Part shown: piece by piece, positions 15,350 through 31,632 of the stretch
Position numbering within the stretch: position 1 is the first letter of the stretch
Layout: every line of letters begins with the position of its first letter
IMG/VR virus record: IMGVR_UViG_3300025697_000092
Coordinates: 1-31,759 of that record
Origin: a virus
Strand: one strand, 5' to 3'
Length of the DNA: 31,759 nt
Program-made: the position numbers and the translations under genes
Notes under the pieces: model-generated
Told to the model about the DNA's origin: nothing
The model's input: only the letters and a program-made list of their open reading frames with translations
The model's database searches: none

Positions 15350-16210
15350 ATGAAAAATATATTAATAAGCATAGCGTTAGTAGCTTTTGTACTTGTTCCA
15401 AGCTATGCTGTTGGCGGTCACAATGGAACGTACGCCATAGAAGTAACTGGAACTCCAGACACGATAACGCCCGACGTAACAGTTGGTGCGGGGTGTGCTT
15501 ATGTTGAAAACACACTTGAGGTAGATGGTGCGACTAGATTTGACGGTGCGGTGACGTTTAATGGTGCGATTGTGTCTTCTGATAGTTTCGTAAACATAGT
15601 GTACCCACTAACTGACCTAGCTGCTTCTGATGGAAACATCTACGTATCGTCAACTGGTGCGAGTGTTGGAAGTTTCGGTGTTGATAGATCGATGAATATA
15701 AGTTTACTACAAGCGGGTGGTACTACGTGGACACTAGCAAAGGCAGACTATACCGATGCTATTCATGCACGGAATATATCCGCCGTTATGAGGTCAACGT
15801 CTACTGCGTCAGATGCAATTTTGGAATCTAGTGCTACACTAACCATTTTAGGGTATACGGCACGTGGAGAACTAGAATCTGATACAATCTCGATGATAGA
15901 CCATACGGTAAGGTACAGCAATAAGGCGTTTCTGTCTGTTGTTAGCTTTACTGTAAGCGATGCAACGGCCACGTGGAGTTCCGTAGGTTATGCGGCACGT
16001 AAAGTTGGATTTGAGATAGGTACAAGCAATAAGATAGGACTACCTATTGATATCGACACTACTGCCGATATTTTCAAGGTTATTGTAGCCGGAGCTACTG
16101 AATCGTCTTCTGATTATACGGCAAATCACGTATATAATACGATAGACTTTTCAAGTGACGGCGATGCTTCAAGGGACTACGAGGTATACATAAAAGTAAA
16201 GCAAAGATAA
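15350..16210 (+). CDS. Signal-peptide-bearing structural protein, beta-rich
   Basis: A 286-aa protein behind AGGAGG. It starts with a complete Sec signal peptide: MKN, a hydrophobic core ILISIALVAFVLV and a cleavage site PSYA|VGG after residue 20. The mature part begins with a beta-solenoid-like stretch (LEVDGATRFDGAVTFNGAI) of the kind found in fibre shafts. It continues as Ser/Thr/Ala-rich beta sheet to the end. One cysteine remains in the mature chain. Its position among connector genes suggests a tail or fibre component. It is the first of ten proteins in this window with such a leader. Confidence 0.65.
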   Translation: MKNILISIALVAFVLVPSYAVGGHNGTYAIEVTGTPDTITPDVTVGAGCAYVENTLEVDGATRFDGAVTFNGAIVSSDSFVNIVYPLTDLAASDGNIYVSSTGASVGSFGVDRSMNISLLQAGGTTWTLAKADYTDAIHARNISAVMRSTSTASDAILESSATLTILGYTARGELESDTISMIDHTVRYSNKAFLSVVSFTVSDATATWSSVGYAARKVGFEIGTSNKIGLPIDIDTTADIFKVIVAGATESSSDYTANHVYNTIDFSSDGDASRDYEVYIKVKQR

Positions 16211-16217
16211 ACGAAAC

Positions 16218-16251
16218 GGTGAGGAGTATCTATAAAAGGGTACTCTTCACC
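16218..16251 (+). terminator. Intergenic stem-loop, 13 bp
   Basis: GGTGAGGAGTATC (16218-16230) pairs with GGTACTCTTCACC (16239-16251) around an 8-nt A/T-rich loop, with two G-T pairs. AATTTGTT follows rather than a clean T-run. As with the hairpin after the capsid gene, it may attenuate transcription or protect the upstream mRNA. Confidence 0.6.
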
Positions 16252-16278
16252 AATTTGTTGACAAGGGAGGTGTTTTAA

Positions 16279-16653
16279 GTGAACAGAAATATTATACATT
16301 CAGAATCATTACAAGATACCGACGGTACGAAATGGGAATCAAAGGCAATGACAACCTCTGCCGCAACGTATTATAGTGACAAAATACCGGTTAAGTTTAG
16401 TACAGGAAATTCTTCGTTACTTGTTAAGACTAGCGCAGGTTCTTTAGCTATTACAGTTGAGTTATCGTTAAACGGTGATGATTGGTACACGCCATACGAT
16501 ACAGACGGAAACGACCTCGGTGCTTTAGTTTCGGCATTAACAGCAGATAGATGGATTGTTTATAACCCACAAATAACATTATACAAACGGTTCAAATTCG
16601 TTTTGACAGATGCAAATTCAACCGTATCAGCTAGATATATTCAACAAGAATAA
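16279..16653 (+). CDS. 124-aa structural protein without signal peptide
   Basis: A GTG start behind AAGGGAGG. The mature-looking beta-rich sequence includes LLVKTSAGSLAITVELSLNG then DDWYTPYDTDGNDLG, and ends in KRFKFVLTDANSTVSARY. That resembles small single-domain beta-sandwich proteins used as capsid or tail decorations. It is one of only two genes between the capsid and the collar fibre that lack a signal peptide, which suggests a head-attached rather than exported product. Function inferred. Confidence 0.55.
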   Translation: MNRNIIHSESLQDTDGTKWESKAMTTSAATYYSDKIPVKFSTGNSSLLVKTSAGSLAITVELSLNGDDWYTPYDTDGNDLGALVSALTADRWIVYNPQITLYKRFKFVLTDANSTVSARYIQQE

Positions 16654-16664
16654 AGGAGAGTGAA

Positions 16665-17066
16665 ATGAAGCGGTATTTTTTATTTACAATGTTTATTTTT
16701 TTTGCGGTATCAGCACACGCAGGTATGTTTGGTGTTAAACTTCAAAAGATAAACAAAGGGCCAGATAGGAGAGACTTTAACCTAACAATAACGTCAGGCA
16801 CAGCAATCGGTGGTGTTGATCAAGGTTCTACAATTCTAAGTACAACCGAAGCATCTATTTGTAATGACGTAGACTTCATAGTAAGAACAAGCACGCTCTA
16901 TACCTCATATTTTTCTAGTTTTTCAACTACTGGCTCGGACTGTCGTATGTGGGTTCCCGGTGAGGCATATAGCTTTGGAGGTAGAAACAATAAACCAGTC
17001 TATGGTAAGACCGCAGATGAAACTTCTAACTCGGCAAGAATAGATGGTGCTATATTTAAAGACTAA
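16665..17066 (+). CDS. Secreted 133-aa protein, unknown function
   Basis: Starts behind AAGGAG and carries a Sec signal peptide (MKR, a Phe-rich core, cleavage SAHA|GMFG after residue 19). The mature part of about 114 aa has two cysteines (ASICNDVDF and GSDCRMWVPG) that could form a disulfide if exported. It also has a Thr/Ser-rich strand region (LTITSGTAIGGVDQGSTILS). No family is recognised. Its position between tail genes suggests a virion or periplasmic accessory protein. Confidence 0.6.
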   Translation: MKRYFLFTMFIFFAVSAHAGMFGVKLQKINKGPDRRDFNLTITSGTAIGGVDQGSTILSTTEASICNDVDFIVRTSTLYTSYFSSFSTTGSDCRMWVPGEAYSFGGRNNKPVYGKTADETSNSARIDGAIFKD

Positions 17067-17074
17067 GAGGTTAA

Positions 17075-18145
17075 ATGAAAAAACTATTTTTAGCCATATT
17101 ATTACTTGGTATATCCATTCCTTGTTTTGGTGGAGAATTGACTCAATACATTGATACTGATGTTGTTGGTGGAACTGGTGATGGTTCTTCTTGGGTTAAT
17201 GCCTACTCTGCAACTGGTTTGTGGGAAGCACAGAACTTAAACCTAACCGACAATGGTGGAGATTCTCTAACTGTAAATTGTAGAGGAATATTAGCAGATA
17301 CAACTGGATTTAATCTTGATGGGTGGACTTGCAATGCAACAAACTATCCTACTCTTGTTGGCGATTGGACACCACCTGCTTCTGGTGATATGTATGATAC
17401 AACTAAATTTAGACTTGAATTGGTTGGCGCACACAAACTAAAAGCATACAGGACAGTTAAGCTTGAGAACATACAAATTAAGTTTACTGCTAGTGGTAAT
17501 GGTCAGAATGTGTGTACTCTTTGGAATCTTAATGCAGGTAAAATAGTTTTAGAAAACTGTATTTTAAAAGCCGTCCTTGGTGCGTACACTGAAATGAAGA
17601 GTCTTATGGCAAATAATAGTGGGACAGGAACCCCAACTTATTTTATAAACTGTTTATTCTATGATTGGACTGGTGCGTGGAGCAGACCGATAACAACCGA
17701 CATAGGTGGGAATACCGTAAACATATATAACTGTACATTTTATAATTGTGAAAGAATCGCTGAAAATAGAGGTGGTGGAACAATAATAGCAACAAACAAT
17801 ATTTTCCATACTGTAAACACAGTAGATATTTATCAAGGTGGAGGTATGGGAACTATCACGCTTTTAACAAACGACACATCCAACGGAGATTATTTTGTTG
17901 ATGCGAGTGGTAGTGACTTTCATGTAAATTCAGATACCGCAGTAGTTGTTGGTGCAGGTACAGATTTAGCGACTATATTTACAACCGATATGGCAGGTGT
18001 TACTCGTAGTAGTCCATGGACTATTGGTGCTTTTGAATTCTTTGTTGCTACACCGACTCCGACACCATCTACATCGTCAAGCTCAAGACTAGAACAAAAT
18101 AATCTCGAACTATTTTTTAAGAGAAGGGGTAAGAGGGTTAAATGA
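17075..18145 (+). CDS. Secreted right-handed beta-helix protein
   Basis: A 356-aa protein with a Sec signal peptide (MKK, a Leu/Ile core, cleavage near CFG|GEL after residue 19). The mature chain begins YIDTDVVGGTGDGSSWVNAY, typical of pectate-lyase-like beta-helix proteins. It continues with helix-turn repeats of the type VKLENIQIKF, IVLENCILK, YFINCLFYDW and VNIYNCTFYNC, which stack Asn/Cys ladders. The domain ends in SSPWTIGAFEF, then a Thr-Pro spacer and a basic tail. In phages this fold forms receptor-binding spikes or polysaccharide depolymerases. No catalytic residues can be assigned. An exported host-surface protein captured by the phage is an alternative. Confidence 0.7.
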   Translation: MKKLFLAILLLGISIPCFGGELTQYIDTDVVGGTGDGSSWVNAYSATGLWEAQNLNLTDNGGDSLTVNCRGILADTTGFNLDGWTCNATNYPTLVGDWTPPASGDMYDTTKFRLELVGAHKLKAYRTVKLENIQIKFTASGNGQNVCTLWNLNAGKIVLENCILKAVLGAYTEMKSLMANNSGTGTPTYFINCLFYDWTGAWSRPITTDIGGNTVNIYNCTFYNCERIAENRGGGTIIATNNIFHTVNTVDIYQGGGMGTITLLTNDTSNGDYFVDASGSDFHVNSDTAVVVGAGTDLATIFTTDMAGVTRSSPWTIGAFEFFVATPTPTPSTSSSSRLEQNNLELFFKRRGKRVK

Positions 18146-18882
18146 AAAAACTGATAATAGCAATCTTGTTAGGAGTTAGTTTCTGTTCGGTATCTTATGC
18201 GTGGAATTTAGAACAACTTAGGGATCAGGCACGATTGACATTAAGGGACTCTGATTCAAGTAACCCACGATGGGAAGACTACCAGTACGATATTAGGTTC
18301 GCTATGGCGGAAGAGGAGTTTTGCAGACGCACAAGAGCGGTTAAAACGCAGAACTATATAGTCACTATTGCCAGTCAAACCGAGTATTCGCTTCCTGATG
18401 GGTGGATAGGTACTGACAGGGTTTCAAGAGCAATAATACCGCTTATAACAGCTACTACGAGATACTTAGAGATAGACCGAGTTACTTTAACGTGGCTAGA
18501 CTCCGATAAGGGTAGACCGTTTTTTGAAGACTCATCACCCGACGTTCCTAACAGATTTTACATCAATCTAAACACACAGAAAATAGGCCTAGACCCACCT
18601 CCTAACGTAACCTATACCGGGACAAACCTCATAAAACATGAGTATACAATTATATCCTCTACCATGAGTGCGGATTCTGATGAACCGTTTGATAGTATAG
18701 GATACCTTTCTTCTTACCACAAGGCTTTAATACCTTACGTTATTTCAATGTGTGAGAAAGATCAAGGGAACGATAACGCCTCTGTGGGTTGGATGCAAGT
18801 CTTTGACGCTTATGTCGAAAGGGCTATATCTGAACTAAACGTAATGATTACTAACAAGAAAGCAAGTATGACTGCCAGATAA
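18142..18882 (+). CDS. Head-tail adaptor protein with a signal peptide
   Basis: A 246-aa protein starting at an ATGA overlap. After a Sec signal peptide (MKK, an Ile/Leu core, cleavage VSYA|WNL after residue 20) the chain begins WNLEQLRDQARLTLRDSDSS, then PRWEDYQYDIRFAMAEEEFCRRT. That is where the conserved helical bundle of podovirus adaptors and neck proteins normally starts at residue 1. YSLPDGW, LDPPPN and the C-terminal helix near SSYHKALIPYVISMC complete the family pattern. Adaptors normally bind the portal in the cytoplasm, so a secretion leader placed exactly in front of this domain is odd and informative. Confidence 0.72.
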   Translation: MKKLIIAILLGVSFCSVSYAWNLEQLRDQARLTLRDSDSSNPRWEDYQYDIRFAMAEEEFCRRTRAVKTQNYIVTIASQTEYSLPDGWIGTDRVSRAIIPLITATTRYLEIDRVTLTWLDSDKGRPFFEDSSPDVPNRFYINLNTQKIGLDPPPNVTYTGTNLIKHEYTIISSTMSADSDEPFDSIGYLSSYHKALIPYVISMCEKDQGNDNASVGWMQVFDAYVERAISELNVMITNKKASMTAR

Positions 18883-18890: not shown

Positions 18891-21263
18891 ATGAGAAAAG
18901 CTATTGTTTTATTGTTGTCAACTATTTGTATTGCTTCGGTAACTTTTAGCGAAGAAACAACTAACGCAAAAGAGTTTCCCCACTATGGCCTACAAGGGTG
19001 GGTTACAGTTGTACGCCCTGATATGCTTTCTGACTTACTTTCCCCTGACGTATTAAATATAGAAACCGCGCGGTATACGGGACTGATTACCCGAAGGTTA
19101 GGAAGTTCGCTGTACCTAACTACTCCCCTTGAAGGTGCTAAATTTATACGAAACTCTTACGTTTATAGGCAAGTAGACAATGACGAGTACATACTTTTAC
19201 AATCTTCTACTTCGATGTTCTACTCAACCGGCGATGGAAACAGTACGAAAATACGAAGCGATCTAAATTCTACCTCGGTTGCGAATATTACAACCGCAAG
19301 AGATACGGCGTACATAGTTGACGGTACTACGTGGGCGTGGAGTTTTAACGGCACGACTACGACGATACTTGACAATAAAGTACATGGTTCGGTTACTATA
19401 TCGACAAACGTACCCTCATACCCCTATTTCGTTAAATGGTGGCACAACAGACTTTGGTATTTTAGGACAGATACATACCCTTCTACGGTGTGGTACAGCA
19501 ACTACAATGACCCCGAAGTTATAGGGGATAACAGTACAAAGAATATCAATGTTTCAGATGGTGACTATATTACAGGCGCATTTTTATACCAAAATAGGTT
19601 GTTCGTAACGAAAAGGAACTCAACGTGGGAAATAACGGAGATAATAGACGATTCTTCCGATCCGTTCTTTATAATTAACAGCATTTCACAAGTTATAGGT
19701 TGTTTGTACCAAAACACTATGCGAGAGCATCAAGGGTTCCCCACGTGGTTAAGCCACAGAGGTGTTGAGATATACAACGGTCAATTTAACCTAGCTAGTG
19801 AGCCAATAGACCCCTACGTTAAAGTATTAAACCAGTTGACCTCTGCTTCGAGATTAAGTCTAATCCAAGACACCGCTTCTGATTGGGGAAAGGGGTCAGG
19901 AATAAACATAGATACTACTACGACTTTAGGTAGTGTGGGTATTAAAGCAAAAGACTCTTCTAGAGACCAATCTCAACGAATGTATATACACCAAGGATCA
20001 TTGGAAAATGGGTATTCAAGAAGACAGTCTTTTAAACCGAGCTACACGGGCTATGTTGATAAGGTTAATATAAACATAAGAACATACACAGGGGGTGATG
20101 GTACATTTAATGTTTATATAGCAAATAATAATATGAATATTATGGAATCATACACCCTTACTGTGTCTTCTGTAATAGGAGATAATACAGATATTAATTT
20201 TAATCATTTAAAATTAACCAAAGATTATACTTATTATATAGTGTTGTCTTCGGTTAGTGGTGCTGGCCAAGTACTTGTAGGTTATTATGAGGAGCGGTAT
20301 AATCGTGGTAATACGGCATCAAAAATATATGATGGTGCATGGACAGAACACCCGGCGTATGACTTAACATTTGCAGTATATATGTCAACTATGAATCCAT
20401 TAAATGGGACATACACCTCACAAACCCTCAACGCAGGTACTTCATGGGGGAGTTGGGGTAACTTTAGCGCAGACGAAACTAAGCCATCGGGTGGGACGAT
20501 TGTATATTACGGTCAAGGTGGCGGGTCAACAACTACCGCATCAGTTGCCGTTAAGACTGTTTTAACTAACGGTAGCCCGATAAACATATCGACTGGCCCG
20601 TACATAGTCGTCACTTCGTCATTAAGTCGTACTAGCTCTACCGTAAATCCTTTGGTAAACTCAATAGGTATTTCATATAACACAAGCTCTGCATTAAAGC
20701 AACCGTTTGCTATTGATTACAACGATAACTACATGATAGCCGTATCAACGAACACAAGTAACAACGATAATAATGTAGTTTTAGTGCTACAAAGTAACGG
20801 CGAGTGGACACGGTTTAACGGTAGTGGTATGAATTGGGGGAGCACGTTTGTTTATAAAAATAACCTCTATTCTTGCGACTCGAAGGACACGGGGAAAGTT
20901 TATCGCCAAGACGTTGAAAATTCGTACAGCGACGACGGAACGGGGTATGAGTCTTATTACTGTTCTAAAATATTCAATTTCGGAAGTATAAGGGAAACCA
21001 CAATACTTGATATAGCACCTCTTTTTAATGATGCAGGGGACTGGAATGTAAATATAGACTATCGTATGCACGGTTCAGGGGGTTCGTGGACGACTAAAAC
21101 ACTCAATTTATCAGACGACACTTTCGGTTTAATAACAAAAGTAATGCCTTTGCAGTTTCCTAAAAGCTACTTTTTCCAGTACAGAATAAGTGAAACCGAT
21201 ATTGACCAATCTTTTGAGTATAGGGGAATGACGATAAGATACTTAATAGAGTCTTTAAAATGA
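18891..21263 (+). CDS. Beta-propeller tail (neck/stabilisation) protein with signal peptide and inserted jelly-roll domain
   Basis: A 790-aa protein. A Sec leader (MRK, a Leu/Ile core, cleavage VTFS|EET after residue 20) precedes a propeller resembling podovirus tail stabilisation proteins. It has LQGWVTVVRPDM, then SPDVLNIETARYTGLITRRLG, repeated blades (YFVKWWHNRLWYFR, GAFLYQNRLFVTKRNSTWEI) and TWLSHRGVEIYNG. Residues about 366-501 (nt ~19990-20395) form a separate jelly-roll-like module (RRQSFKPSYTGYVDKVNINI to YDLTFAVYM) in more AT-rich DNA, apparently inserted. Propeller-like strands resume after it (IAVSTNTSN, VLQSNGEWTRF). Three cysteines lie in the mature chain. Confidence 0.72.
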   Translation: MRKAIVLLLSTICIASVTFSEETTNAKEFPHYGLQGWVTVVRPDMLSDLLSPDVLNIETARYTGLITRRLGSSLYLTTPLEGAKFIRNSYVYRQVDNDEYILLQSSTSMFYSTGDGNSTKIRSDLNSTSVANITTARDTAYIVDGTTWAWSFNGTTTTILDNKVHGSVTISTNVPSYPYFVKWWHNRLWYFRTDTYPSTVWYSNYNDPEVIGDNSTKNINVSDGDYITGAFLYQNRLFVTKRNSTWEITEIIDDSSDPFFIINSISQVIGCLYQNTMREHQGFPTWLSHRGVEIYNGQFNLASEPIDPYVKVLNQLTSASRLSLIQDTASDWGKGSGINIDTTTTLGSVGIKAKDSSRDQSQRMYIHQGSLENGYSRRQSFKPSYTGYVDKVNINIRTYTGGDGTFNVYIANNNMNIMESYTLTVSSVIGDNTDINFNHLKLTKDYTYYIVLSSVSGAGQVLVGYYEERYNRGNTASKIYDGAWTEHPAYDLTFAVYMSTMNPLNGTYTSQTLNAGTSWGSWGNFSADETKPSGGTIVYYGQGGGSTTTASVAVKTVLTNGSPINISTGPYIVVTSSLSRTSSTVNPLVNSIGISYNTSSALKQPFAIDYNDNYMIAVSTNTSNNDNNVVLVLQSNGEWTRFNGSGMNWGSTFVYKNNLYSCDSKDTGKVYRQDVENSYSDDGTGYESYYCSKIFNFGSIRETTILDIAPLFNDAGDWNVNIDYRMHGSGGSWTTKTLNLSDDTFGLITKVMPLQFPKSYFFQYRISETDIDQSFEYRGMTIRYLIESLK

Positions 21264-22150
21264 GGAAACTCTTAATATTAGTTATTATCTCAATGTTTTC
21301 AATACCGTTGTTTGCAGAAACCGCACCTTACACGTTTACTCAAAAGGAGTGGCGGAATATTGATCTAAGTTATTTAAACTCGACAATCTTCTACATTCTA
21401 AACAAGAAACAAAATATAGACTTTAAGCAAGTTTCATCTGTTCCAAGTGCAACGAGATTATACAATAAACAGTTAATTCTTTACAATTCAGGAGCATCTT
21501 ATAGGTTGTACTCAAAGATAAACGACAACTTGAAGTATATAACATTTAATATCGAAGACATAGCAAACACGTGGAGTGGTGAGAACACGTTTAGTAATAC
21601 CGTTACCGTTACGACTATTACAGCTACGACATTAAATGTATCTGGTGTAGTTAATTTTTTACCAGCAGGGACTATAACAATGTATGGTGGTTCTACTGCA
21701 CCGACGGGGTGGTTTGTTTGCGACGGTTCAACTGTTTCAAGAACAACATATGCAACTTTATACGCAATTATAGGTGAAACCTATGGTGCGGGTGATAGTT
21801 CTACGAATTTCAGTCTACCTGATTTTCGTGGAGTATTTGCGGTTGGTTCTGGGACAACAACACGTGTATCAGGCGTAGATGCAAGTGGAAGCCAATATGC
21901 GAGTACGTTAGGTGATTACGAACAAGACCATTTTCAAGGGCATAGGCATTTAATTAGAGATAGTAATGGAAGTCAATATAGTTCCGGGCTTATTCAGTCG
22001 GGAAGTGATGCATCTGTTCTATTATATCCTTCGGGTGTTACTACGGGATATGCAGCCGAACCGGTTGACGATGGAACTCACGGAACACCAAGGACAGGGC
22101 ACGCAACAGAACCGCAGTCTTTAAGCGTTAATTATATTATAAGATATTAA
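21260..22150 (+). CDS. Tail fibre with phage collar domain and signal peptide
   Basis: A 296-aa protein starting at an ATGA overlap. The Sec leader has cleavage site PLFA|ETA after residue 19. After a short shaft-like part (WSGENTFSNTVTVTTITATT), residues about 135-200 match the tail-collar domain: PAGTITMYGGSTAPTGWFVC then DGSTVSRTTYATLYAIIGETYG and FSLPDFRGVFAVG. The C-terminus (DHFQGHRHLI ... HATEPQSLSVNYIIRY) is the usual fibre tip, where His residues bind metal or receptor. It should recognise the host surface. The leader is unusual for a fibre, which normally folds in the cytoplasm. Confidence 0.8.
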   Translation: MRKLLILVIISMFSIPLFAETAPYTFTQKEWRNIDLSYLNSTIFYILNKKQNIDFKQVSSVPSATRLYNKQLILYNSGASYRLYSKINDNLKYITFNIEDIANTWSGENTFSNTVTVTTITATTLNVSGVVNFLPAGTITMYGGSTAPTGWFVCDGSTVSRTTYATLYAIIGETYGAGDSSTNFSLPDFRGVFAVGSGTTTRVSGVDASGSQYASTLGDYEQDHFQGHRHLIRDSNGSQYSSGLIQSGSDASVLLYPSGVTTGYAAEPVDDGTHGTPRTGHATEPQSLSVNYIIRY

Positions 22151-22156: not shown

Positions 22157-22196
22157 GATTTATGAATACAAATATGATAAGATTTATGAATACAAA
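22157..22196 (+). repeat. 16-nt direct repeat duplicating the gene start
   Basis: GATTTATGAATACAAA occurs at 22157-22172 and again at 22181-22196, 24 nt apart and so in frame. It doubles the start codon region and gives the N-terminus MNTNMIRFMNTN. The first copy has AGGAGG at good spacing, so initiation at 22162 is preferred. A start at 22186 is possible. Confidence 0.8.
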
Positions 22197-23706
22197 CATT
22201 AGTTTAATAATAAGGGATGGTAATGCTCTTCTTGATTTGTTGAAAAGTAACCCAACTGAATTTAAGAAGTTGCGTACTGAAACACACAATAGGGCTAACT
22301 CCACAAAAGATGCGGGAGATTGGCAAGATGCGGGATATTTAAGGTACATACAAGAGGCGTACGATAACGACCTTCCAATGGTAACTCGTGCCAAATTCGA
22401 CAGTAATGTAAATATAAAAGAAGAAGGTAGTTACGGTGACTTTTTCTCTGGTGTTGTAGCTAAAAAGGAAAAACTAGAAAGTGATACCAACTCTCAATTA
22501 AACCAAGTAAATGTTTTTATCGCACAGAAAGACTACGCTTCGGCTCAAGCTATATTAGATAATATAAAGGTAGATAACCCCAGTTATGATACTAGTGAGT
22601 ATCAAGGTAGAGTAGACACAGGGAAAGGCGAAGTCGTAACACCTGAAGGAGAATTACAAGGTCAGTTAGATAAGTCTTTAGAACATGGATTAATTACTCA
22701 AGAGGTTTACGATAAGGCGAAAAAGTATCTTGATTCTGGGTTGACCGACCAAGCAAGTGAGTATTTTAATGCCGAGGTAAACATTGACAGAACCGAGGAC
22801 ATACCTACTTATGACTATAGCAAAGACCCGGGAAAGGAAACAATCGACCAGTTAAAAGCTGGGTATCAAGAAACAGCAGCCCAAGAGTTAGGCGATTTTG
22901 TCGAACCCGAAATGACCGATAAGTACGAAGCACCGACTTTGACACCTGAAATGGTTCAGAATTGGGATTTAACCGTTCAAGACTGGGATAAGGTAGCCGA
23001 CACTAAGGAAGAGGAAAGACTACTAAGGACTCTTGACGCTCAAGATCCATACGGTGCGGGTTCAGGAGATAGGGCGACCAAGTTAAGCGCATTGATAGCC
23101 GACAGGGCAGAAGCGCGGAAAGGAAGGTCTTTTACTTTGGCTCAAGACGAGTTATCAGCCAAGACAGATACCGCTCAAGTAGAATACCAACAGAAACTAA
23201 CCGAATGGGAAAAACAGTACGGAACGGCGTGGTCACAGTACAACTACAAACAACAGCAAATTGAAAACTCAAAGTTAAAGTTACAGGAAATAGCTGAATT
23301 TGAGAGTAACGCTTTTAGGTTTACTAACGCACAAGAACGTGAGGCTGCGTGGGCTTCGCTTGAAAGGGCGTGGACACAGAGAGATCAGTCAATGTCAGAT
23401 AAACAAGAACTTGAAATGCAAGGTAGAAATATAGCGGCAGGTACTTCTTCACAGATTTTAGGAAACATACAATCTACAAGGGAAGCAGATACCTCATTTT
23501 ATCAGAACAAGGAATTAATGAGAATACAGAACGCCAACGAAAGAGAGGTCGCTGGTATGTACGCAGACGCTAATAAGAAGAGTGCGTTTGATTATGTCGC
23601 ACCAGTTCTTTCTACGGTAGCGAGTGGCTATTTTCAAGGATTTGGATATGGTAAAGGTAGCCCACTACTTTCAAGTAAATATGGCGCAACAGATAAAACA
23701 AAATAA
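22162..23706 (+). CDS. Internal virion (ejection) protein, helical
   Basis: A 514-aa protein with no signal peptide. It is mostly charged helix and coiled coil with many Gln/Glu/Ala residues (for example KLTEWEKQYGTAWSQYNYKQ, then QQIENSKLKLQEIAEFESN). The C-terminus has a Gly/Ala-rich stretch (DYVAPVLSTVASGYFQGFGY), possibly membrane-active. In podoviruses, proteins of this kind follow the tail genes and precede a very large internal protein, and they are ejected to extend the tail through the envelope. The assignment rests on position and composition, not a specific motif. Confidence 0.65.
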   Translation: MNTNMIRFMNTNISLIIRDGNALLDLLKSNPTEFKKLRTETHNRANSTKDAGDWQDAGYLRYIQEAYDNDLPMVTRAKFDSNVNIKEEGSYGDFFSGVVAKKEKLESDTNSQLNQVNVFIAQKDYASAQAILDNIKVDNPSYDTSEYQGRVDTGKGEVVTPEGELQGQLDKSLEHGLITQEVYDKAKKYLDSGLTDQASEYFNAEVNIDRTEDIPTYDYSKDPGKETIDQLKAGYQETAAQELGDFVEPEMTDKYEAPTLTPEMVQNWDLTVQDWDKVADTKEEERLLRTLDAQDPYGAGSGDRATKLSALIADRAEARKGRSFTLAQDELSAKTDTAQVEYQQKLTEWEKQYGTAWSQYNYKQQQIENSKLKLQEIAEFESNAFRFTNAQEREAAWASLERAWTQRDQSMSDKQELEMQGRNIAAGTSSQILGNIQSTREADTSFYQNKELMRIQNANEREVAGMYADANKKSAFDYVAPVLSTVASGYFQGFGYGKGSPLLSSKYGATDKTK

Positions 23707-23717: not shown

Positions 23718-24296
23718 ATGGGAAGCGGATACATTGAAGCGGCGAAGTATAAAGCTGAACAGGACAATAGAAACCCTTTAGCAGAGGGTTTGAGTAACAT
23801 AGCCGAGAGTGCGGCGAGTGGTTACTTTAAAGGTAAGAATACTGCTATTTCCGAAGATAAAGAATTTAAAAGAGACCTTTTTAAAGAGTACATTAAAAAC
23901 GGTGTTCTAACGAGCAAGTCAAGTGGTCAACCTCTTAATATCGCACAGATTTTACACACATACAAAGAGTTTTACGCTACTGGTAAAATACCCGACAACG
24001 TCGTATACACGTCAAGAAAATCAATACCAGAGACACCAGAGCAAAAGAGTGAACGTGGATTGAAGGATTATAAGGCAAAGAGGGGAGCTGACACTGAACT
24101 TGGTCTTGACCCATACGGTAGATCGAAAGCAACGGCGTTAGGTAAAAAAGATGCGAAAGGTACATATGCAGACCTTTTTGATGAGACCGAAGATACTGCG
24201 GTTACTGGAAAACCCAAAGTAGGAGATATTGTAGATGGCTATAAGTTTTTAGGTGGCGACCCATCTTCTCAAAGTAGTTGGAAGAAAGTTAAATAA
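23718..24296 (+). CDS. Internal virion protein, 192 aa
   Basis: Starts behind AAGGAG. It has a short Ala/Gly segment (AESAASGYFKGKN) like the one at the end of the preceding protein. A helical middle follows, and a C-terminal signature VGDIVDGYKFLGGDPSSQSS then WKKVK, which recurs at the end of phage virion proteins near large ejected proteins. No signal peptide. It is probably packaged in the head with its neighbours. Confidence 0.6.
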   Translation: MGSGYIEAAKYKAEQDNRNPLAEGLSNIAESAASGYFKGKNTAISEDKEFKRDLFKEYIKNGVLTSKSSGQPLNIAQILHTYKEFYATGKIPDNVVYTSRKSIPETPEQKSERGLKDYKAKRGADTELGLDPYGRSKATALGKKDAKGTYADLFDETEDTAVTGKPKVGDIVDGYKFLGGDPSSQSSWKKVK

Positions 24297-24308
24297 AGGA
24301 TATTAATA

Positions 24309-27300
24309 ATGCCTAAACCGTGGGAACTTTATACACCACAAGAAACATCTACACCACCGTGGGAAAAGTTTAGTGAAGAAAAAACTAAACCGTGGGATAG
24401 CTTTAAAGAATCTTTTGGCTCTGCCAAAAAGACTTTAGGCAGTATGATAGGCAAGGTGAGAAAACCTATTGACTTACTTGCTGATACGAGTACAGAACTA
24501 GCCACTACTGGTGGTCTTGATTTTTCCAACCAACAACCCGCAGACTTACAAAACCAACCCTCTTTAATTCCGTTTAAAGAACAAGGGCAAATAACACCAG
24601 AAGAACAAAAAATACAATCCGAAGTGAACCTCGATGTAGACCTTTTCCAATTAGCCGATAATATAGCTACCGTGGGTTTTGATAGTAAAGACGAGGCGAT
24701 GAAGGTAAAGAAACGTCAAGACTTCATTATGTCACGTGCGCCGTTGATAGCTTCGGGAATGGCAAGTCCTATTGCCGTTATGGGGTTTGAAATATTTAAC
24801 CAGTTAAAAGGGTTATCGGTTTCAAGCAATACGGGACAGAAATACGATCCGTTACAGACCAAGCAGTTGACCGATTTACTACCAGACGACACACCTCAAC
24901 CGCTAAGACTTGGCCTTTCAGTAGGCGAAATGGTGGGCGACGTAGCTCTTTTAGGTACTTTACTTAATATGGCAAATAAGGGCATTTTAGACTCTACCTT
25001 AAAAGAAGTAGAAAGTAAGATGACTAATCGGGGATACTCAAAAGAAGACGTTAAATCCGTCTCTGAAGTGCTTAAAAACGTGGTTAAAGGCAGTACGGAG
25101 AAGAACATAAAGGCATCTTTTGGCGTTGAGAAATGGGAACCTATGGTACAAGTCAAGCCTAGCCCTAAGTTACCCGGTGTAAAAGGCGTCGTAAAAGGCG
25201 GTGTAAAAGGTACGGAAATAGTAAAACCTAAATCAATCCCCGAAATAACCCCCAAGATACCCAAAAGCGCGGTGATGTTGCCTAAATCAGGTAAAGAAAT
25301 TTACCAACCAACCCCCACAACCCCACCAGACGCACAGAAATTAGGCGTAGTCAGCGAAGTCCCACCAAAGGTAGAAATACCCCAAGGCGAGGTTAAGCCC
25401 GTAGAAACGCCTAAATCAAGCCCTTTAGTTGAAGAAGCTAGGAAGTATAAGTCTGCTGAGGAGTGGGTTTCAACATATAGAGGTAGTGCTACTCAATATA
25501 GTGGATATAATCCTAATATACGAAAATTTGGAACAACAGAGGGAAGTGAAAGAATTAGCGATTTAGGTGTTGACCCAGAATTAGATGTTACTATTTATCG
25601 TGGTGTATCTGATGGTAATAAAAAACTCATTAATGCTAAGATTGTAGATGGTGATTTTGTAACAACAGATAGTATGTCTGCCGAATCTTATGCGGGTAAA
25701 AATAATGTTGTTAGTATGAAAGTTAAAGCTAAAGATTTAATACACGATTTTCCTGATGAATTTGATTCTAATAAACCTTTTGGGGTAGGTGCAGAATTTA
25801 TTTATTCTGACAACAAAAATAAACTCATAAAATACACAGACAAGCAACTAACCGAGATATGGAACAAAGCCAATAAGGTAGATGAGACTTCTGTAAAGCA
25901 AACCATAGAAAAGTCAGGTGGTCAGTTTATAGGCATACAAGAAGGTTTTGATGATGTAAAGTCAATGGCTATGTTCAATGACCCTAAGACTGGAAGTACC
26001 TTGTCATTGCCTATTGACGGGGTTACTAGTGAGGCGGTGAGTGAAAAACTAGGTAAGACCGAGAAGGTTTTTAAGGAAAAGAAGGTGTTTGGTAAGGCAG
26101 ATAAGAAGTTTACCGAGGAATCAGGTGTGGTTGCTAATCCTTTAGAGGTAACCCAAAAGACAAAAGAGTATGTGAACAAAAACTGGACGACTTTAAGAGA
26201 AAAGATAGAGGACGATTGGATAAGGGTTAAAAAGCTTACCCAAAAAGAAGGTGTTAAGCTAACCGAAGCTAATAATCCTTACGAGGCAGAGACTAGGTAT
26301 TGGGGTCGTGTCGGCACTCGCATGGAAGATACTTTAGACCAAATTAGCGATATTGACAAGGAAATAGCAAAAGTTGAAAAGAAGTATAAATCCCCTGAAA
26401 TAAACAAGGATATTGACAGGTATTTAATAGCTAAACACGCACCCGAACGGAACGTCGTACATGGCGAAGAATCGGCGGGAATAACTAGCGAACAAGCAAG
26501 TAAAAATATTAAAGAGATAGAAGGGAAGTCTTATGGTAAAGAAGTAAAGCAAATAGCTAAAGATATAAAAAAGTTAAACGAAAAAACTCTCGATGTCTTA
26601 CTTGAAGGCGAAGTAATATCTCAGGGCGATTACGATAAATTAAGAAAGTTGTACCCTAATCATATACCATTAAACAGAGTAATGAGTGAATCCGAGGACT
26701 TTGTACAGATATTGACTTCTAGGGGTTTCAATGTCCAAGGTACGGGAATTAAGAGAGCTTTTGGGAGTAAAAAGGAAGTAGCTGATATTTTGGGTAATGT
26801 AACGGCTAATTTACGATCGGCTATTGCAAGGTCAGAAAAGAATATTGTTGATAACCACACTTTAAATTTTGCTAGAGATAACGATTATTTTGACGGACTT
26901 TTTGAAGAAATAAAACCCAAAACGATAGGTAAGACTTTTGAAGGTGGGTTTATACAAGAACACATAAATGACCCCTCTGTTTTACCGGTAAGAGAAAAAG
27001 GCAAACAAGTTTATTTGAAGATAAACGACCCACAGATAGCAGTTGCGTTTCGTGGTGTAAACAGAATTAAGGTAGACGATTTAACGAGAATGGTGGCTGC
27101 GTTTACAAGGTTCTATGCCGGTCTTATGACTAGGTTTAACCCCGAATTTGCCGTACCGAACAAAGTAAGAGATTTACAGGAAACAATGGTGTATATGGCC
27201 AGTAAGAAAGATATAGGTTTTTCGGGTGCGGCGAAGACTGCTATAAAAGACCCCGTAAGTATTAAGGCAGTAGTTGACTATATGGGTGGAAAGGATACGG

Positions 27301-28823
27301 AAGGTGCGAGACTTTACCAGCAAATGAAAGAAGACGGCGGAACGACTGGTGGGCTTGGACTTTCTACTAAAAAACAAACAGAAATAGACATAGATAAAAT
27401 ACGGAGAATTAATAGAAATAAACCCAGAAAAGTCGCTGAAATTGCCTTGCGGGTAGTTGATAACTGGAACGCCATATTTGAGGATTCTACAAGACTTTCG
27501 GTTTATAGGCAGTCGTTATCTCAAGGACTTAGTAGAAAAAAGTCGGCAGTATACGCGAAAGAAGCTTCAATTAATTTTAACAAAATGGGCGCTTTGTCTC
27601 CCATGACTAACGGTATATGGATGTTCTCTAACGCTTCAGTACAGGGTTCGGCTAAGATGTTACGGGCAATGAGAGACCCTAAGGTTGCGGGAATGGTTTT
27701 AGCTACTATCGGTGGTTCGATATACGCTATCAACGAATATAACGATAAGATAGACCCCGAATGGAGAAGTAAAGTAAGCGAGTGGGATAGACTTAACGGA
27801 ATAACTATTATGCTACCTTCTAATAAGGGTGTGCGTTATATTACAATCCCTGTATCGTGGGGACTGAAACCAATTAAAGTTGGTATGGATTATTTCATAG
27901 ACTACACACAAGGACATGAAAAAGATATAAAAACTGCCATGAGTAAGGTTTTGGCGGCAATATGGGAAGGATATAACCCCGTAGGCGGTACGGACATAGT
28001 TTCTGCGGTAACACCCACAATCCTTGACCTACGCATAGACATATCAAGAAACCGATCGTGGACTGGTGGGAAGATTAGACCTAACTGGAACCAATCGGCT
28101 CCCGATTCTATAAAGTATTTCGATAGCTTAAAAGATAAATTAATGGGAAAAAAGTTTATTGGTTGGACGCGCAAACTCGGAGAAAAGGGAATAGAAATAT
28201 CCCCAGCGGATATGAACTACGCATTTCAACAGCTTGTAGGTGGTACGGGCAGATTTACACAAAAAGTGTTTGAAACTATAAGCGGAGTGAAAAAGGGTAA
28301 GATAGAAGCAAAAGAAATACCGTTTATAAGTAGATTTTACCGAGACATACCCGAAGACAGAATACGTGGCGAGTCAAAAGAGTTTGAGAGTTTAAAAGAT
28401 GCGTTAAAGAAACAAGATAAAGAACGGTTTTATTTTAACCAAGAAGCGGAGTTAGTTTACGAAGGAATGAAACAGATACCCGCAAAAGAAATGAATGAAA
28501 ATTACAACAAAATGGAGGAAAACAATCCGCGCCTTGCGAAAAAGATAAAACATTTAAGAGAAAACGAAAAGTATAAATTGACCTATATCGAAAGGTTGAC
28601 TAAGCAGTTAGGTGATACAAATGGAGAGCGGTTTAAATATATATGGTCTAAAGTAAGTGAACTTAAAACAGGGAAAGAGAAAAATACATATTTAAAAGAC
28701 TTGATAAAGAAAAAAATAATATCAGATAACGTATGGGAACAGTTAGTGTCAATGAGCAAGAAGAAAGGTAAAAAGACTCTTGGCTCAAAAATAGGGAAGG
28801 ACTTATTAAATGAAAATAAATAA
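24309..28823 (+). CDS. Large polyvalent internal virion protein (ejected), with ART-like insert
   Basis: 1504 aa, no signal peptide. The N-terminus repeats a PW(E/D)x(F/Y) motif three times (KPWELY, PPWEKF, KPWDSF). Residues ~376-515 form a module, DVTIYRGVSDGNKK ... GDFVTTDSMSAESYAG ... VSMKVKAKDLIHDF ... EFIYS, resembling the ADP-ribosyltransferase-like domains of phage polyvalent proteins. The DNA encoding it is clearly more AT/T-rich. A helical region with LIAKHAPERN and LRKLYPNHIPLNR follows. The C-terminal third (AFTRFYAGLMTRFNPEFAVP, RLSVYRQSLSQGLSRKKSA, INFNKMGALSP, WMFSNASVQGSAKML) matches large-polyvalent-protein domains of the LPD38 type, with a hydrophobic segment near 1124-1141. 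Probably injected ahead of or with the DNA to form a conduit and act on the host. Confidence 0.78.
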   Translation: MPKPWELYTPQETSTPPWEKFSEEKTKPWDSFKESFGSAKKTLGSMIGKVRKPIDLLADTSTELATTGGLDFSNQQPADLQNQPSLIPFKEQGQITPEEQKIQSEVNLDVDLFQLADNIATVGFDSKDEAMKVKKRQDFIMSRAPLIASGMASPIAVMGFEIFNQLKGLSVSSNTGQKYDPLQTKQLTDLLPDDTPQPLRLGLSVGEMVGDVALLGTLLNMANKGILDSTLKEVESKMTNRGYSKEDVKSVSEVLKNVVKGSTEKNIKASFGVEKWEPMVQVKPSPKLPGVKGVVKGGVKGTEIVKPKSIPEITPKIPKSAVMLPKSGKEIYQPTPTTPPDAQKLGVVSEVPPKVEIPQGEVKPVETPKSSPLVEEARKYKSAEEWVSTYRGSATQYSGYNPNIRKFGTTEGSERISDLGVDPELDVTIYRGVSDGNKKLINAKIVDGDFVTTDSMSAESYAGKNNVVSMKVKAKDLIHDFPDEFDSNKPFGVGAEFIYSDNKNKLIKYTDKQLTEIWNKANKVDETSVKQTIEKSGGQFIGIQEGFDDVKSMAMFNDPKTGSTLSLPIDGVTSEAVSEKLGKTEKVFKEKKVFGKADKKFTEESGVVANPLEVTQKTKEYVNKNWTTLREKIEDDWIRVKKLTQKEGVKLTEANNPYEAETRYWGRVGTRMEDTLDQISDIDKEIAKVEKKYKSPEINKDIDRYLIAKHAPERNVVHGEESAGITSEQASKNIKEIEGKSYGKEVKQIAKDIKKLNEKTLDVLLEGEVISQGDYDKLRKLYPNHIPLNRVMSESEDFVQILTSRGFNVQGTGIKRAFGSKKEVADILGNVTANLRSAIARSEKNIVDNHTLNFARDNDYFDGLFEEIKPKTIGKTFEGGFIQEHINDPSVLPVREKGKQVYLKINDPQIAVAFRGVNRIKVDDLTRMVAAFTRFYAGLMTRFNPEFAVPNKVRDLQETMVYMASKKDIGFSGAAKTAIKDPVSIKAVVDYMGGKDTEGARLYQQMKEDGGTTGGLGLSTKKQTEIDIDKIRRINRNKPRKVAEIALRVVDNWNAIFEDSTRLSVYRQSLSQGLSRKKSAVYAKEASINFNKMGALSPMTNGIWMFSNASVQGSAKMLRAMRDPKVAGMVLATIGGSIYAINEYNDKIDPEWRSKVSEWDRLNGITIMLPSNKGVRYITIPVSWGLKPIKVGMDYFIDYTQGHEKDIKTAMSKVLAAIWEGYNPVGGTDIVSAVTPTILDLRIDISRNRSWTGGKIRPNWNQSAPDSIKYFDSLKDKLMGKKFIGWTRKLGEKGIEISPADMNYAFQQLVGGTGRFTQKVFETISGVKKGKIEAKEIPFISRFYRDIPEDRIRGESKEFESLKDALKKQDKERFYFNQEAELVYEGMKQIPAKEMNENYNKMEENNPRLAKKIKHLRENEKYKLTYIERLTKQLGDTNGERFKYIWSKVSELKTGKEKNTYLKDLIKKKIISDNVWEQLVSMSKKKGKKTLGSKIGKDLLNENK

Positions 28824-28959: not shown

Positions 28960-28961
28960 CT

Positions 28962-29129
28962 GTGGGAAACAAGACATTTTGGCAAGACGGCAGACCCCAA
29001 TCATCAAGAATAGATCCCTCAAACTCTAACGCAATATATGAGGGTTGGTGTCAAATTGGCAAGTACGCTGATACCGATAAAGGCGTGTGGAGAATATCAA
29101 AAACCGATTCAAACGGTGATAGAACGTGA
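28962..29129 (+). CDS. Small phage structural-type protein ending at an in-frame TGA
   Basis: A GTG start with a perfect AGGAGGT. 55 codons to TGA 29127, giving MGNKTFWQDGRPQSS ... IYEGWCQIGKYADTDKGVWR ISKTDSNGDRT. The sequence resembles a family of short phage proteins in which VW(R/Q)I(R/K)K-type text is followed by ...WAxGT...WDNRASYTYS. Here the second half follows immediately after the TGA in the same frame (see 29127-29192). The gene is therefore either truncated by a nonsense change, probably Trp TGG to TGA, or read through. Confidence 0.6.
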   Translation: MGNKTFWQDGRPQSSRIDPSNSNAIYEGWCQIGKYADTDKGVWRISKTDSNGDRT

Positions 29130-29192
29130 GCGGAAGGAACTTATAAAGATACAAAAATATGGAACAATAGAGCTACTTATGCTTATTCGTAA
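29127..29192 (+). other. In-frame continuation beyond TGA 29127
   Basis: After the TGA the same frame continues AEGTYKDTKIWNNRATYAYS and ends at TAA 29190-29192. The IWNNRATYAYS ending fits the normal C-terminus of the family, and the following fibre gene starts at ATG 29179 inside it with a 14-nt overlap. That is the operon geometry expected if the full 76-codon frame were translated. Confidence 0.5.
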
Positions 29193-30210
29193 ACTACTTC
29201 TTATATTATTCTTGATCGTACCTTCATATTGTTACGCCGAATTACCGACGGTTGTGTTCGGAAGCACGACATATAGATTTAATCCATTTATGAACCCAGC
29301 TAAAAGACAACAATGGGACGACGTATCTGCGGAGAATCTAGGTGGCTACACTTCGGGTCAATTTCTATTGTTAGGGGGAAGTCAAACCGTTTCAGGTCAA
29401 CCCGTATTTAACAATATAATTCTAGGCACAGCTACCTATGTTCTTGACTCTGCTCTTTTAAATGGTTACACTTCGTCTGAAATAGTAGCAATATCTACAA
29501 ATCTTGTACCTTCTCCTGATTTATCAGCTTATGCAATTAAATTAGATGTATCAAATTCAACAGATGCAATCACCACGCAACTATACCAAGTTGCTATTGA
29601 TACCACTGCAACTATAAATGAATTGAGGGATAACTACGCAAGACTTGATTCTTCCCCGACGTGGACGGGAAGTATAACAACTCCTAGTGTTTATGTATCA
29701 TCATTCGTTACAACTCAAGACTTAAACGTGTTGGGAAAAACTCGAATAAGAATGGATCACGCTACTTTTTATTCAACCACAACTCAGTCAATAGCGGTGG
29801 TAAATGCAACGCAGACTATCACACTTGATGGTACGATTGACTCACATGGGGGAATAACATTTGACGGGGCAACGGGTTGTGTTACTGTTTTAGATGGTGG
29901 TTCGTATCTTATTGGTTTTTCAGCTATACCACAAGGAACAAATGGTAATCGATTATTTATATTTCCCAGAATAAATAATATAGATGTTCCATATTCCAAT
30001 ACGATTTGGCAATTTACTGGCGGTTCTGCACCAAAAGTTGAAACGGTATTTTATAATTTAGATATGAACGCAGGAGATGAGATATGTTTAATTATGTATT
30101 CAAATAACGCCTCTACTGAGTTATTGGCAATACCAGCGACAACGGTTCCAATAGCACCAGCAATGCCATCAATTATCATAACAGTAAATAAAACGGGGGA
30201 ACAGCAATGA
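29179..30210 (+). CDS. Secreted fibre protein with C1q/TNF-like domain
   Basis: A 343-aa protein. ATG 29179 is chosen because a Sec signal peptide starts there (MLIRK, a Leu/Ile core, cleavage SYCYA|ELP after residue 20). The longer open frame upstream to 29038 overlaps another gene. A shaft-like middle (SAENLGGYTSGQFLLLGGSQ) leads to residues ~198-340. These form a C1q-like jelly roll: TVLDGGSYLIGFSAIPQG, RLFIFPRINNIDVPYSN, LDMNAGDEICLIMYSNN, MPSIIITVNKTGEQQ. Such trimeric domains tip phage fibres and bind receptors. The ribosome site is weak, so coupling to the preceding frame is likely. Confidence 0.7.
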   Translation: MLIRKLLLILFLIVPSYCYAELPTVVFGSTTYRFNPFMNPAKRQQWDDVSAENLGGYTSGQFLLLGGSQTVSGQPVFNNIILGTATYVLDSALLNGYTSSEIVAISTNLVPSPDLSAYAIKLDVSNSTDAITTQLYQVAIDTTATINELRDNYARLDSSPTWTGSITTPSVYVSSFVTTQDLNVLGKTRIRMDHATFYSTTTQSIAVVNATQTITLDGTIDSHGGITFDGATGCVTVLDGGSYLIGFSAIPQGTNGNRLFIFPRINNIDVPYSNTIWQFTGGSAPKVETVFYNLDMNAGDEICLIMYSNNASTELLAIPATTVPIAPAMPSIIITVNKTGEQQ

Positions 30211-30494
30211 GAAAACTTTTAATTGCAGTATTTGTACTATTACTCTCAATACCAGTATTTGCCGAAGAAAAGATTGAATCTATTGTTAATAATGATATTA
30301 ATGTATACGATGTTTCAGTAGGAACAAATTCGCAGATGTCGGTTTATTTTGGTTACAAGAACGATAACAACACTTATCAAGATGCACTTGACGACTATTC
30401 AGCAGAAAAGATTGAATCTATTGTTAATAATGATATTAATGTATACGATGTTTCAGTAGGAACAAATTCGCATCAGGTTATAGGAAAAGACTAA
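30207..30494 (+). CDS. Secreted 95-aa protein with a perfect internal duplication
   Basis: Starts at an ATGA overlap. The Sec signal peptide has cleavage PVFA|EEK after residue 19. The mature 76 residues consist of EKIESIVNNDINVYDVSVGT (NS) occurring twice, separated by MSVYFGYKNDNNTYQDALDD. The two copies are identical for 68 nt in the DNA. The unit has a beta-strand-like alternation (INVYDVSVG) suggesting short fibre or adhesin repeats. No family is recognised. No cysteine is present. Confidence 0.65.
   Translation: MRKLLIAVFVLLLSIPVFAEEKIESIVNNDINVYDVSVGTNSQMSVYFGYKNDNNTYQDALDDYSAEKIESIVNNDINVYDVSVGTNSHQVIGKD
30267..30334 (+). repeat. 68-nt perfect direct repeat, copy 1
   Basis: Identical to 30405-30472 over 68 nt and offset by 138 nt, so in frame. 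It encodes EKIESIVNNDINVYDVSVGTNS in the secreted 95-aa protein. Confidence 0.92.
30405..30472 (+). repeat. 68-nt perfect direct repeat, copy 2
   Basis: Second copy of 30267-30334. The sequence diverges immediately after it (His-Gln-Val rather than Gln-Met-Ser), and the gene ends 22 nt later. Confidence 0.92.
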
Positions 30495-30509
30495 AAAGGG
30501 AGAACGATA

Positions 30510-30746
30510 ATGGCACAGGAGAACAGAATGAAGGTAGATTTAGTTGTGAAGGTGGTATCTTCTATAGTCATTGTCGTGTTTCTTTCCGGTGGTGCGTGGG
30601 TTATGATCAACGATAATTCGGCTATTGCTAAAAAGGCACTATCAGGGGTTGAGGGTTTAGACACAAGGGTAACAAGGATTGAGGTTGTACTAGACAACAA
30701 ACTGTCTAACATAGATTCAAAGCTGGAAATATTGTTAAAAAAATAG
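30510..30746 (+). CDS. Single-span membrane protein, possible holin-like
   Basis: A 78-aa protein behind GGGAG. A short cytoplasmic N-terminus is followed by a transmembrane helix at residues ~11-33 (LVVKVVSSIVIVVFLSGGAW), then a coiled-coil-like tail (DTRVTRIEVVLDNKLSNIDS). It has no cleavage site, so it is an anchored protein rather than a secreted one. Its length and position suit a phage lysis-associated membrane protein, but neither a second helix nor a neighbouring endolysin is visible. Confidence 0.6.
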   Translation: MAQENRMKVDLVVKVVSSIVIVVFLSGGAWVMINDNSAIAKKALSGVEGLDTRVTRIEVVLDNKLSNIDSKLEILLKK

Positions 30747-30754
30747 GAGGATTT

Positions 30755-31252
30755 ATGCGGAAAATATTAGTTATACTCTTTTTAATTTCATCAACAAGTA
30801 TCCCTGCTTTTGCGTGGAGTCCGTTTAAGGGTATGATCGAAGCGAAGGTAGCCGACGAGATTAATGGAGTAAAGCAAGAGTTTAATGGTAGGGTTTCGGG
30901 TATTGAAAAGCTATGTGTCGATTTGCAAGTAAAAGTAGATGCAGTTGCTCAAGGAAACGCAAACGCAGTAATGGCATTAAAGAGTGATATAAAGAATACG
31001 AACAATGTAATTAAGGGCAATCAAAGTAACGTAACAAATGACTCTGGTTTAATGTGGAAAATCATATACGGACTGCTTACTATAATTACGGTATTAATAG
31101 GAAACCAGTTTTTCGTACTAAAAAAGCTACTTAAATGCACTCTTGAAAAGAAGTTTTATAAAGAGCAAACAATATTGAAAGTTAAAGACGTAGGAGAACT
31201 AAAAGATATTAGGGAGAAGCACAATAAATTTATAAAGGAAGGTAAGCTATGA
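30755..31252 (+). CDS. Signal peptide, coiled-coil and transmembrane protein
   Basis: A 165-aa protein behind AGGAGG. A cleavable Sec leader (cleavage PAFA|WSP after residue 20) is followed by a coiled coil (EINGVKQEFNGRVSGIEKLC and onward), a transmembrane helix at ~99-121 (MWKIIYGLLTIITVLIG) and a basic tail of about 40 aa. That topology puts the coiled coil outside the inner membrane and the tail in the cytoplasm. It could be an envelope-spanning lysis or superinfection factor. The function is not established. It ends in an ATGA overlap. Confidence 0.6.
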   Translation: MRKILVILFLISSTSIPAFAWSPFKGMIEAKVADEINGVKQEFNGRVSGIEKLCVDLQVKVDAVAQGNANAVMALKSDIKNTNNVIKGNQSNVTNDSGLMWKIIYGLLTIITVLIGNQFFVLKKLLKCTLEKKFYKEQTILKVKDVGELKDIREKHNKFIKEGKL

Positions 31253-31632
31253 AAAAAGTATTGTTAGCAGTATTTGTATTGGCGTTGTTTGTACCAGTTG
31301 TTAAAGCAGATGAGGTTGAGGCGTATTTTAAATGGGGTAAACTTGAGAAGAAAGATGTACGCATTGTGTCTCTTTATGAGTTGTCAAAAGGTAATGGGCT
31401 AATTGGTGGTGAAAAGATGATAGCATCTAAGGGTCTATGGAGTCTTGATTTCGGTGCAGTATCGTCATTTCTAGGACATGGTACTCCTTACCTTTCCATA
31501 GACTATGACTTTGCTAAGATAACCCCATTTATTAAAAATACATTGTTCGGAACATTTGTAGGTAAAGATTTTAACGTAGGTGGCATAGATAAGGGTTGGA
31601 TTTGGGGATTTAAAATAGCTAGAAAGATATAA
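31249..31632 (+). CDS. Secreted 127-aa protein, unknown function
   Basis: Starts at an ATGA overlap with a Sec leader (MKK, a Val/Leu core, cleavage VVKA|DEV after residue 20). The mature part is beta-rich, with alternating aromatic/Gly segments (LWSLDFGAVSSFLGHGTPYL, FVGKDFNVGGIDKGWIWGFK) and an aromatic-containing end. It could be a very small outer-membrane-like barrel or a periplasmic protein. It is shorter than known 8-strand barrels, so that is speculative. Confidence 0.55.
   Translation: MKKVLLAVFVLALFVPVVKADEVEAYFKWGKLEKKDVRIVSLYELSKGNGLIGGEKMIASKGLWSLDFGAVSSFLGHGTPYLSIDYDFAKITPFIKNTLFGTFVGKDFNVGGIDKGWIWGFKIARKI

Follow-up and report, generated by a model that had tools for sequence, protein, structure and literature searches.

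Ten proteins encoded in the late region of the virus record IMGVR_UViG_3300025697_000092, a 31,759-base stretch that is called the window below and was analyzed by computation only, begin with a leader that has the form of a Sec signal peptide. The leaders are present on the head-to-tail adaptor, the tail nozzle and other proteins, and, relative to the joint between head and tail, all lie on the tail side. They are conserved as a property but not as a sequence, and they are placed precisely before the native N terminus. We consider it probable that, in this group of uncultured short-tailed phages, Sec exports the tail components, which are then trimmed and put together beyond the inner membrane and meet the DNA-filled heads when the cell lyses. 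The ten leadered genes, and one leaderless gene inside their cluster, are as follows (a slash marks the predicted cut).

15350–16210, plus strand: 286-amino-acid protein, leader MKNILISIALVAFVLVPSYA/VGG; first leadered gene downstream of the capsid genes, no family match
16279–16653, plus strand: 124-amino-acid late protein, no leader, though inside the leadered cluster
16665–17066, plus strand: 133-amino-acid protein, leader MKRYFLFTMFIFFAVSAHA/GMF
17075–18145, plus strand: 356-amino-acid protein, leader MKKLFLAILLLGISIPCFG/GEL; weak similarity to polysaccharide lyases (chondroitinase B), seven cysteines in the mature part
18142–18882, plus strand: head-to-tail adaptor, leader MKKLIIAILLGVSFCSVSYA/WNL; PF24175 (SU10_adaptor), E=7.9e-18, residues 22–228
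18891–21263, plus strand: tail nozzle, leader MRKAIVLLLSTICIASVTFS/EET; 28% identical to the nozzle of contig L047, family fold that of P22 gp10, SU10 and T7 gp12
21260–22150, plus strand: tail collar or short fibre protein, leader MRKLLILVIISMFSIPLFA/ETA; PF07484, E=1.4e-23
29179–30210, plus strand: 343-amino-acid fibre-like protein, leader MLIRKLLLILFLIVPSYCYA/ELP
30207–30494, plus strand: 95-amino-acid protein, leader MRKLLIAVFVLLLSIPVFA/EEK, internal direct repeat
30755–31252, plus strand: 165-amino-acid protein, leader MRKILVILFLISSTSIPAFA/WSP; a coiled coil is followed by a membrane segment near residue 103
31249–31632, plus strand: 127-amino-acid protein, leader MKKVLLAVFVLALFVPVVKA/DEV

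In all ten leaders, an n-region with one to three basic residues is followed by an uncharged hydrophobic core of 9–15 residues (mean Kyte-Doolittle hydropathy 2.6–3.9) and a small-x-small cleavage site at residue 19–20. A preliminary description of the window had given these ten open reading frames (ORFs) with the correct coordinates and N termini, and with the same three-part architecture, but had put the core at 12–15 residues. It had also counted at least four recognizable tail proteins; homology or fold identifies only three (the adaptor, the nozzle and the collar protein), and the other seven are assigned by position or by weak fibre-like features. The gene at 29179 does encode a leader as described, but the ORF listing starts it at an upstream ATG at 29038, and the start at 29179 has a weak Shine-Dalgarno sequence and overlaps the stop of the preceding frame.

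Leaders were called with a home-made rule-based detector, the rule being fixed before the relatives were examined. The ten leaders scored 16.2–23.1. With the same rule, Sec and lipoprotein substrates in a 50-kb test region of E. coli scored 14.1–20.0; the twin-arginine (Tat) protein hyaA was missed, and one weak false call was made (yccX, 11.9). The rule called only small holin- or spanin-type membrane proteins and one weak 78-amino-acid ORF in T7, SU10 and phiEco32, and it made 4 calls in 3600 shuffled core N termini. No window gene before 15350 was called, and outside the ten the only call was ORF 30510 (78 amino acids), whose hydrophobic N-terminal segment makes it resemble a small holin-type protein. 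None of the ten leaders contains a lipobox or a Tat motif, which argues against their belonging to lipoproteins (signal peptidase II substrates) or Tat substrates. Nine of the ten mature parts lack a further transmembrane stretch, the exception being that of 30755. The positive n-region, the uncharged core, the small residues at −3 and −1, and the conservation of the property without that of the sequence, with a fixed cut before the mature domain, suggest strongly that these are true Sec/signal peptidase I signal peptides, from which export is predicted.

Recent copying of one leader among the genes was considered and rejected, because DNA similarity among the leaders does not clearly exceed what would be expected from the residues they encode; among 45 pairs, a few reached a nominal p of ~0.01. 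The protein encoded at 30207–30494 contains a direct repeat of ~22 residues (EKIESIVNNDINVYDVSVGTNS), and its leader is most like that of the collar protein. Just upstream of 29179, positions 28961–29190 hold a short frame with a GTG start, a ribosome site (GGAGGAGG) and an in-frame TGA (SNGDRT, stop, AEGTYKDTKIWNNRATYAYS). Past this TGA, which is common to the sister contigs L032 and L031, the frame terminates in a stop overlapping the 29179 ATG. Reassignment of TGA in the phage is unlikely, because 13 genes terminate with it.

Scans with the capsid protein gave ~100 contigs, nine of which were informative (the window, L044, L047, L115, L117, L119, L120, L123 and L124). Their capsid proteins are down to ~40% identical, that of L044 being 57% identical. 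As far as the contigs reach, the capsid gene is followed by a leaderless hydrophilic protein, at least one leadered gene, then adaptor, nozzle and a collar or small tail gene, all three leadered, and then leaderless internal proteins. The nozzle gene directly follows the adaptor gene, as expected of a nozzle. By the rule, a leader was present in 32 of 35 tail orthologues, a count that includes the window's own genes, and in 0 of 72 core orthologues (Fisher p = 3e-24). The core class comprised terminase, portal, scaffold, capsid, two linked head-region proteins and three internal virion proteins. The three exceptions were the L124 adaptor, which has a long n-region ahead of a clear core (KKWLFGFILIFLSGNVHA/TT); L124 g11440, with a net charge of zero; and L123 g15473, which has no usable start giving a leader. 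The L117 nozzle was left out of the count since no usable start was found for it.

Tail proteins free of export signals, as in a podophage tail assembled in the cytoplasm, are thus not what this set contains. Comparison with relatives had been named beforehand as a test that could refute export of the tail parts, and its outcome favored export, the leaders being retained. The absence of leaders from portal, scaffold, capsid, terminase, GroES and internal virion proteins, also claimed in advance, agreed with the window and, GroES apart, with the core orthologues. The further claim that the partition follows virion topology held throughout the nine contigs, but the late gene at 16279 is leaderless inside the cluster and one branch of kin differs, as described below. 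In the capsid tree, leadered adaptors fell into two groups, the window with L044 and the rest, and a single clade was not rejected (approximately unbiased test, p=0.26); the leaders may have been gained once or twice, or have spread by transfer of the module. In other capsid relatives, a gene immediately or closely downstream of the capsid gene encodes a protein with a strong leader or a membrane anchor (L057:6505, L071:4616 and L086:11008).

Against the PF24175 profile (cut-off 27 bits), the adaptors of the window, L044 and L047 scored 66, 55.5 and 83.3 bits, and the match on the window adaptor starts two residues past the predicted cut. In the better-sampled branch, the leaders are nearly unalignable (5–44% identity) and the mature parts are conserved (39–69%); the predicted cut falls at alignment columns 39–46 in all nine contigs. 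An adaptor scan gave 71 further, distant adaptors (25–32% identity), none of them leadered, on contigs with one leader call in 647 genes. The start methionine of these leaderless adaptors lies at −3 to +2 residues from the predicted mature end of the leadered ones. Because the two coincide, the leader appears to be an add-on whose removal would restore the ancestral protein, and in our view this coincidence is the best evidence for a leader destined for removal. In bacteria, leader removal occurs on the outer face of the inner membrane. The L115 adaptor has an ATG exactly at the mature start, without a ribosome site; at the mature boundary of those adaptors and nozzles that were checked, in-frame starts preceded by a good ribosome site are lacking, and therefore no leaderless cytoplasmic form of either protein is evident.

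The fold of the window nozzle was assigned by homology, since its own two-sequence model had a predicted local distance difference test (pLDDT) score of 30. A model of the leaderless homologue L130, built from 14 sequences (pLDDT 79), matched the nozzles of Pa223, P22 (gp10), SU10, Sf6 and T7 (gp12) in Foldseek searches (E 5e-25 to 1e-9). The window nozzle is linked to this model via L047 (28% identity, 3e-15) and a profile match (98.6%), and the profile of leadered nozzles aligns with leaderless nozzles from mature residue 7. Given these identities, the two most important leaders lie on parts whose counterparts in known phages assemble on the portal in the cytoplasm. Nozzles of the L047 group contain 9–17 cysteines with conserved columns, versus 0 or 1 per protein in the three internal virion proteins (window 22162–28823 and orthologues), which is compatible with oxidative folding.

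According to the explanation that we favor, the proteins of the tail module (adaptor, nozzle and collar, together with further tail or fibre proteins) would be made as precursors and threaded through the host SecYEG; host signal peptidase I would cut them back to the ancestral N terminus, and they would fold and oligomerize beyond the inner membrane. The capsids, equipped with portal and internal proteins, would form and fill with DNA in the cytoplasm. Heads and tails would meet when lysis opens the inner membrane, or at a membrane-docked portal, and the virion would be finished there. Export and trimming of the tail module are strongly indicated; the place and time of head-tail joining are conjecture. 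Joining at lysis is the simplest version because no means is known by which a filled head could cross an intact membrane. The interpretation in the preliminary description, that tail parts are exported and mature outside the inner membrane, is to that extent still the best reading and is backed by the relatives. We are evenly divided on the broader proposition, a tailed-phage lineage with compartment-split assembly, in which filled heads are cytoplasmic, a complete tail machine is built outside from Sec-exported, trimmed subunits, and infectious particles arise only once lysis unites both.

Several points weigh against export and outside assembly of the tail. The leader calls rest on a home-made detector. 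The tail/core partition is not universal among kin: in the L087/L128 branch, leaders occur on neighboring fibre-like genes but not on adaptor or nozzle (L087/L133 4314–8912 and L128 9212–10978, where only fibre-like genes beside a leaderless adaptor are leadered), a pattern that may be a partial or intermediate state. The cysteine evidence is mixed, many adaptors having none. Filled heads without adaptor and nozzle would need to hold their DNA until joining, which is a problem; the leaderless conserved protein family of 14831, downstream of the capsid gene, might be the place to look for a DNA plug, but this is only a thought.

The best surviving alternative, an unlikely one, is that the leaders engage SecYEG/YidC mainly as anchors, so that tail subunits are held at the inner membrane, heads dock by the portal, and any cleavage frees the particle. 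In its favor, the leaders are highly hydrophobic, anchored parts would be kept at a high local concentration, and filamentous phages assemble at the membrane from Sec-inserted coat proteins (PMC4823517). However, almost every orthologue retains a small-x-small site, and cutting there yields the ancestral N terminus, which points to removal; the mature parts are otherwise soluble, and an N-in anchor would place the tail domain in the periplasm, away from the cytoplasmic portal.

It is improbable that the exported tail parts serve as surface-displayed or periplasmic decoys in superinfection exclusion, blocking receptors or competing phages, and that virions draw on a small pool of unexported copies. 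A secreted phage protein is known from T4, whose spackle gp61.3 acts on tail lysozyme in the periplasm (PMC7650644), and the distal leadered genes 30207–31249 are not obvious virion parts. Yet the whole tail module is leadered, and adaptor and nozzle are single-copy structural parts for which neither a second leaderless gene nor a good internal start at the mature boundary was detected. Display against other phages is less likely for these buried parts than for the distal fibre-like genes. Just as doubtful is export of only the fibres and some accessory proteins, the adaptor and nozzle leaders being poorly read by Sec or the proteins folding first and remaining inside. Ring-forming proteins may fold fast, and the L087/L128 leaders are on fibre-like genes only; but the adaptor and nozzle leaders equal those of the other tail genes in strength and conservation.

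Retention of the leaders in the virion, to ease the tail's passage through the envelope of the next host as membrane-active peptides, is very improbable: several leadered proteins are probably tail-tip proteins or fibres, which meet a membrane on entry, but the adaptor sits at the portal, far from any membrane, and is leadered in all nine contigs, and the leaders have full n/h/c architecture with a cut site instead of amphipathic fusion-peptide character. An artefact of gene calling or chance hydrophobic N termini, suggested by the home-made detector and by some starts that are GTG or lack a ribosome site, is hardly credible, being already contradicted by the comparative data (1/647 and 0/72 versus 32/35, 4/3600 in shuffles, and conservation across contigs from many samples).

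The closest known systems are the SU10/phiEco32-type podophages (Kuravirus). They share with the window the portal (PF23899) and adaptor (PF24175) families, the order portal, scaffold, capsid, adaptor and later nozzle and internal proteins, and a nozzle fold that matches SU10 tail chains; they differ in that the SU10 adaptor and nozzle are leaderless (rule-checked) and that the window capsid protein is Mu gpT-like. The nozzle fold is also that of P22, Sf6, T7 and Pa223 (gp10, gp8, gp12); T7 gp12 has no leader by the rule, and the P22, Sf6 and Pa223 nozzles are not known to carry one. The window adaptor and nozzle had no sequence match in 50,697 phage records, and no direct homologue in cultured phages was found there. 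Genome scans aimed at host identification found no relative.

In the textbook view, tailed phages assemble wholly in the cytoplasm. Filamentous phages (Inoviridae; M13 pIII and pVIII) have virion proteins with type I Sec signal sequences and membrane-based assembly (PMC4823517), but they lack heads and tails, are extruded without lysis, and have no sequence relation to the window. T4 spackle has a cleaved signal peptide and acts in the periplasm on a tail part (PMC7650644), but it is a single protein, described as a tail lysozyme inhibitor, and not the tail itself. Lambda Lom, a late-region phage protein with an export signal (PMC12309495), and lysis proteins (signal-arrest-release endolysins, holins and spanins) have export signals in late regions, as here, but with membrane or lysis functions and not as core virion parts. 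In the papers found by full-text searches, which covered few subscription papers and no preprints, signal peptides on phage proteins were on lysis, exclusion or unknown proteins and filamentous-phage coats, and none was reported on the adaptor or nozzle of a tailed phage. Export signals on core tail parts of tailed phages thus appear to be new, in the sense of not found rather than proven absent.

If core tail parts do pass through Sec, joining head to tail involves the crossing of a membrane, the timing of lysis becomes a part of building the virion, tail proteins could fold with the help of periplasmic oxidation and chaperones, and a tailed phage would have Sec or signal peptidase among its host factors. 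Adaptor orthologues that differ in having a leader but share one mature N terminus are a clean natural experiment that makes the site of tail building directly testable.

The gene order in the window (capsid, adaptor, nozzle, internal proteins) is that of short-tailed phages, with a portal and an adaptor of SU10 type; the portal scored 65.5 bits against PF23899 (curated cut-off 30). The following genes all lack a leader:

8469–10625, plus strand: portal (PF23899, SU10_portal, E=4.3e-18)
11698–12603, plus strand: scaffold-like protein
13079–13819, plus strand: conserved capsid-adjacent protein
13859–14770, plus strand: major capsid protein (PF10124, Mu gpT-like)
14831–15334, plus strand: conserved hydrophilic protein
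22162–23706, plus strand: internal virion protein 1 (by position), no cysteine
23718–24296, plus strand: internal virion protein 2 (by position), no cysteine
24309–28823, plus strand: giant internal or ejection protein (LPD38, 1504 amino acids), no cysteine

A frameshift at the 3′ end of the capsid gene was rejected because the capsid end aligns with relatives. The large terminase is in two frames (5505–6392 and 6582–7277) around a small ORF at ~6402–6578 (MKITQNGKGIRITRSNG...); the split is also present in the sister contig L005, and relatives such as L047 and L115 have a single long frame. Judged by eye only, a phage-borne GroES-like protein is encoded at 7765–8058, upstream of the portal, and contig G016 (L135) has a similar small protein in an upstream position. 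The early region of the sister contig L035 (7867–8178) encodes an additional small protein with a leader, MKCFKALLLVVIISSVSYA/GLIKCPNCGSS. In a sister strain, the giant internal protein (L029:6280–11991) has 1903 amino acids versus 1504 in the window; it contains an extra repeated stretch around the segment that reads VTIYRGVSDGNKK... in the window and that is, by eye only, reminiscent of an ADP-ribosyltransferase fold.

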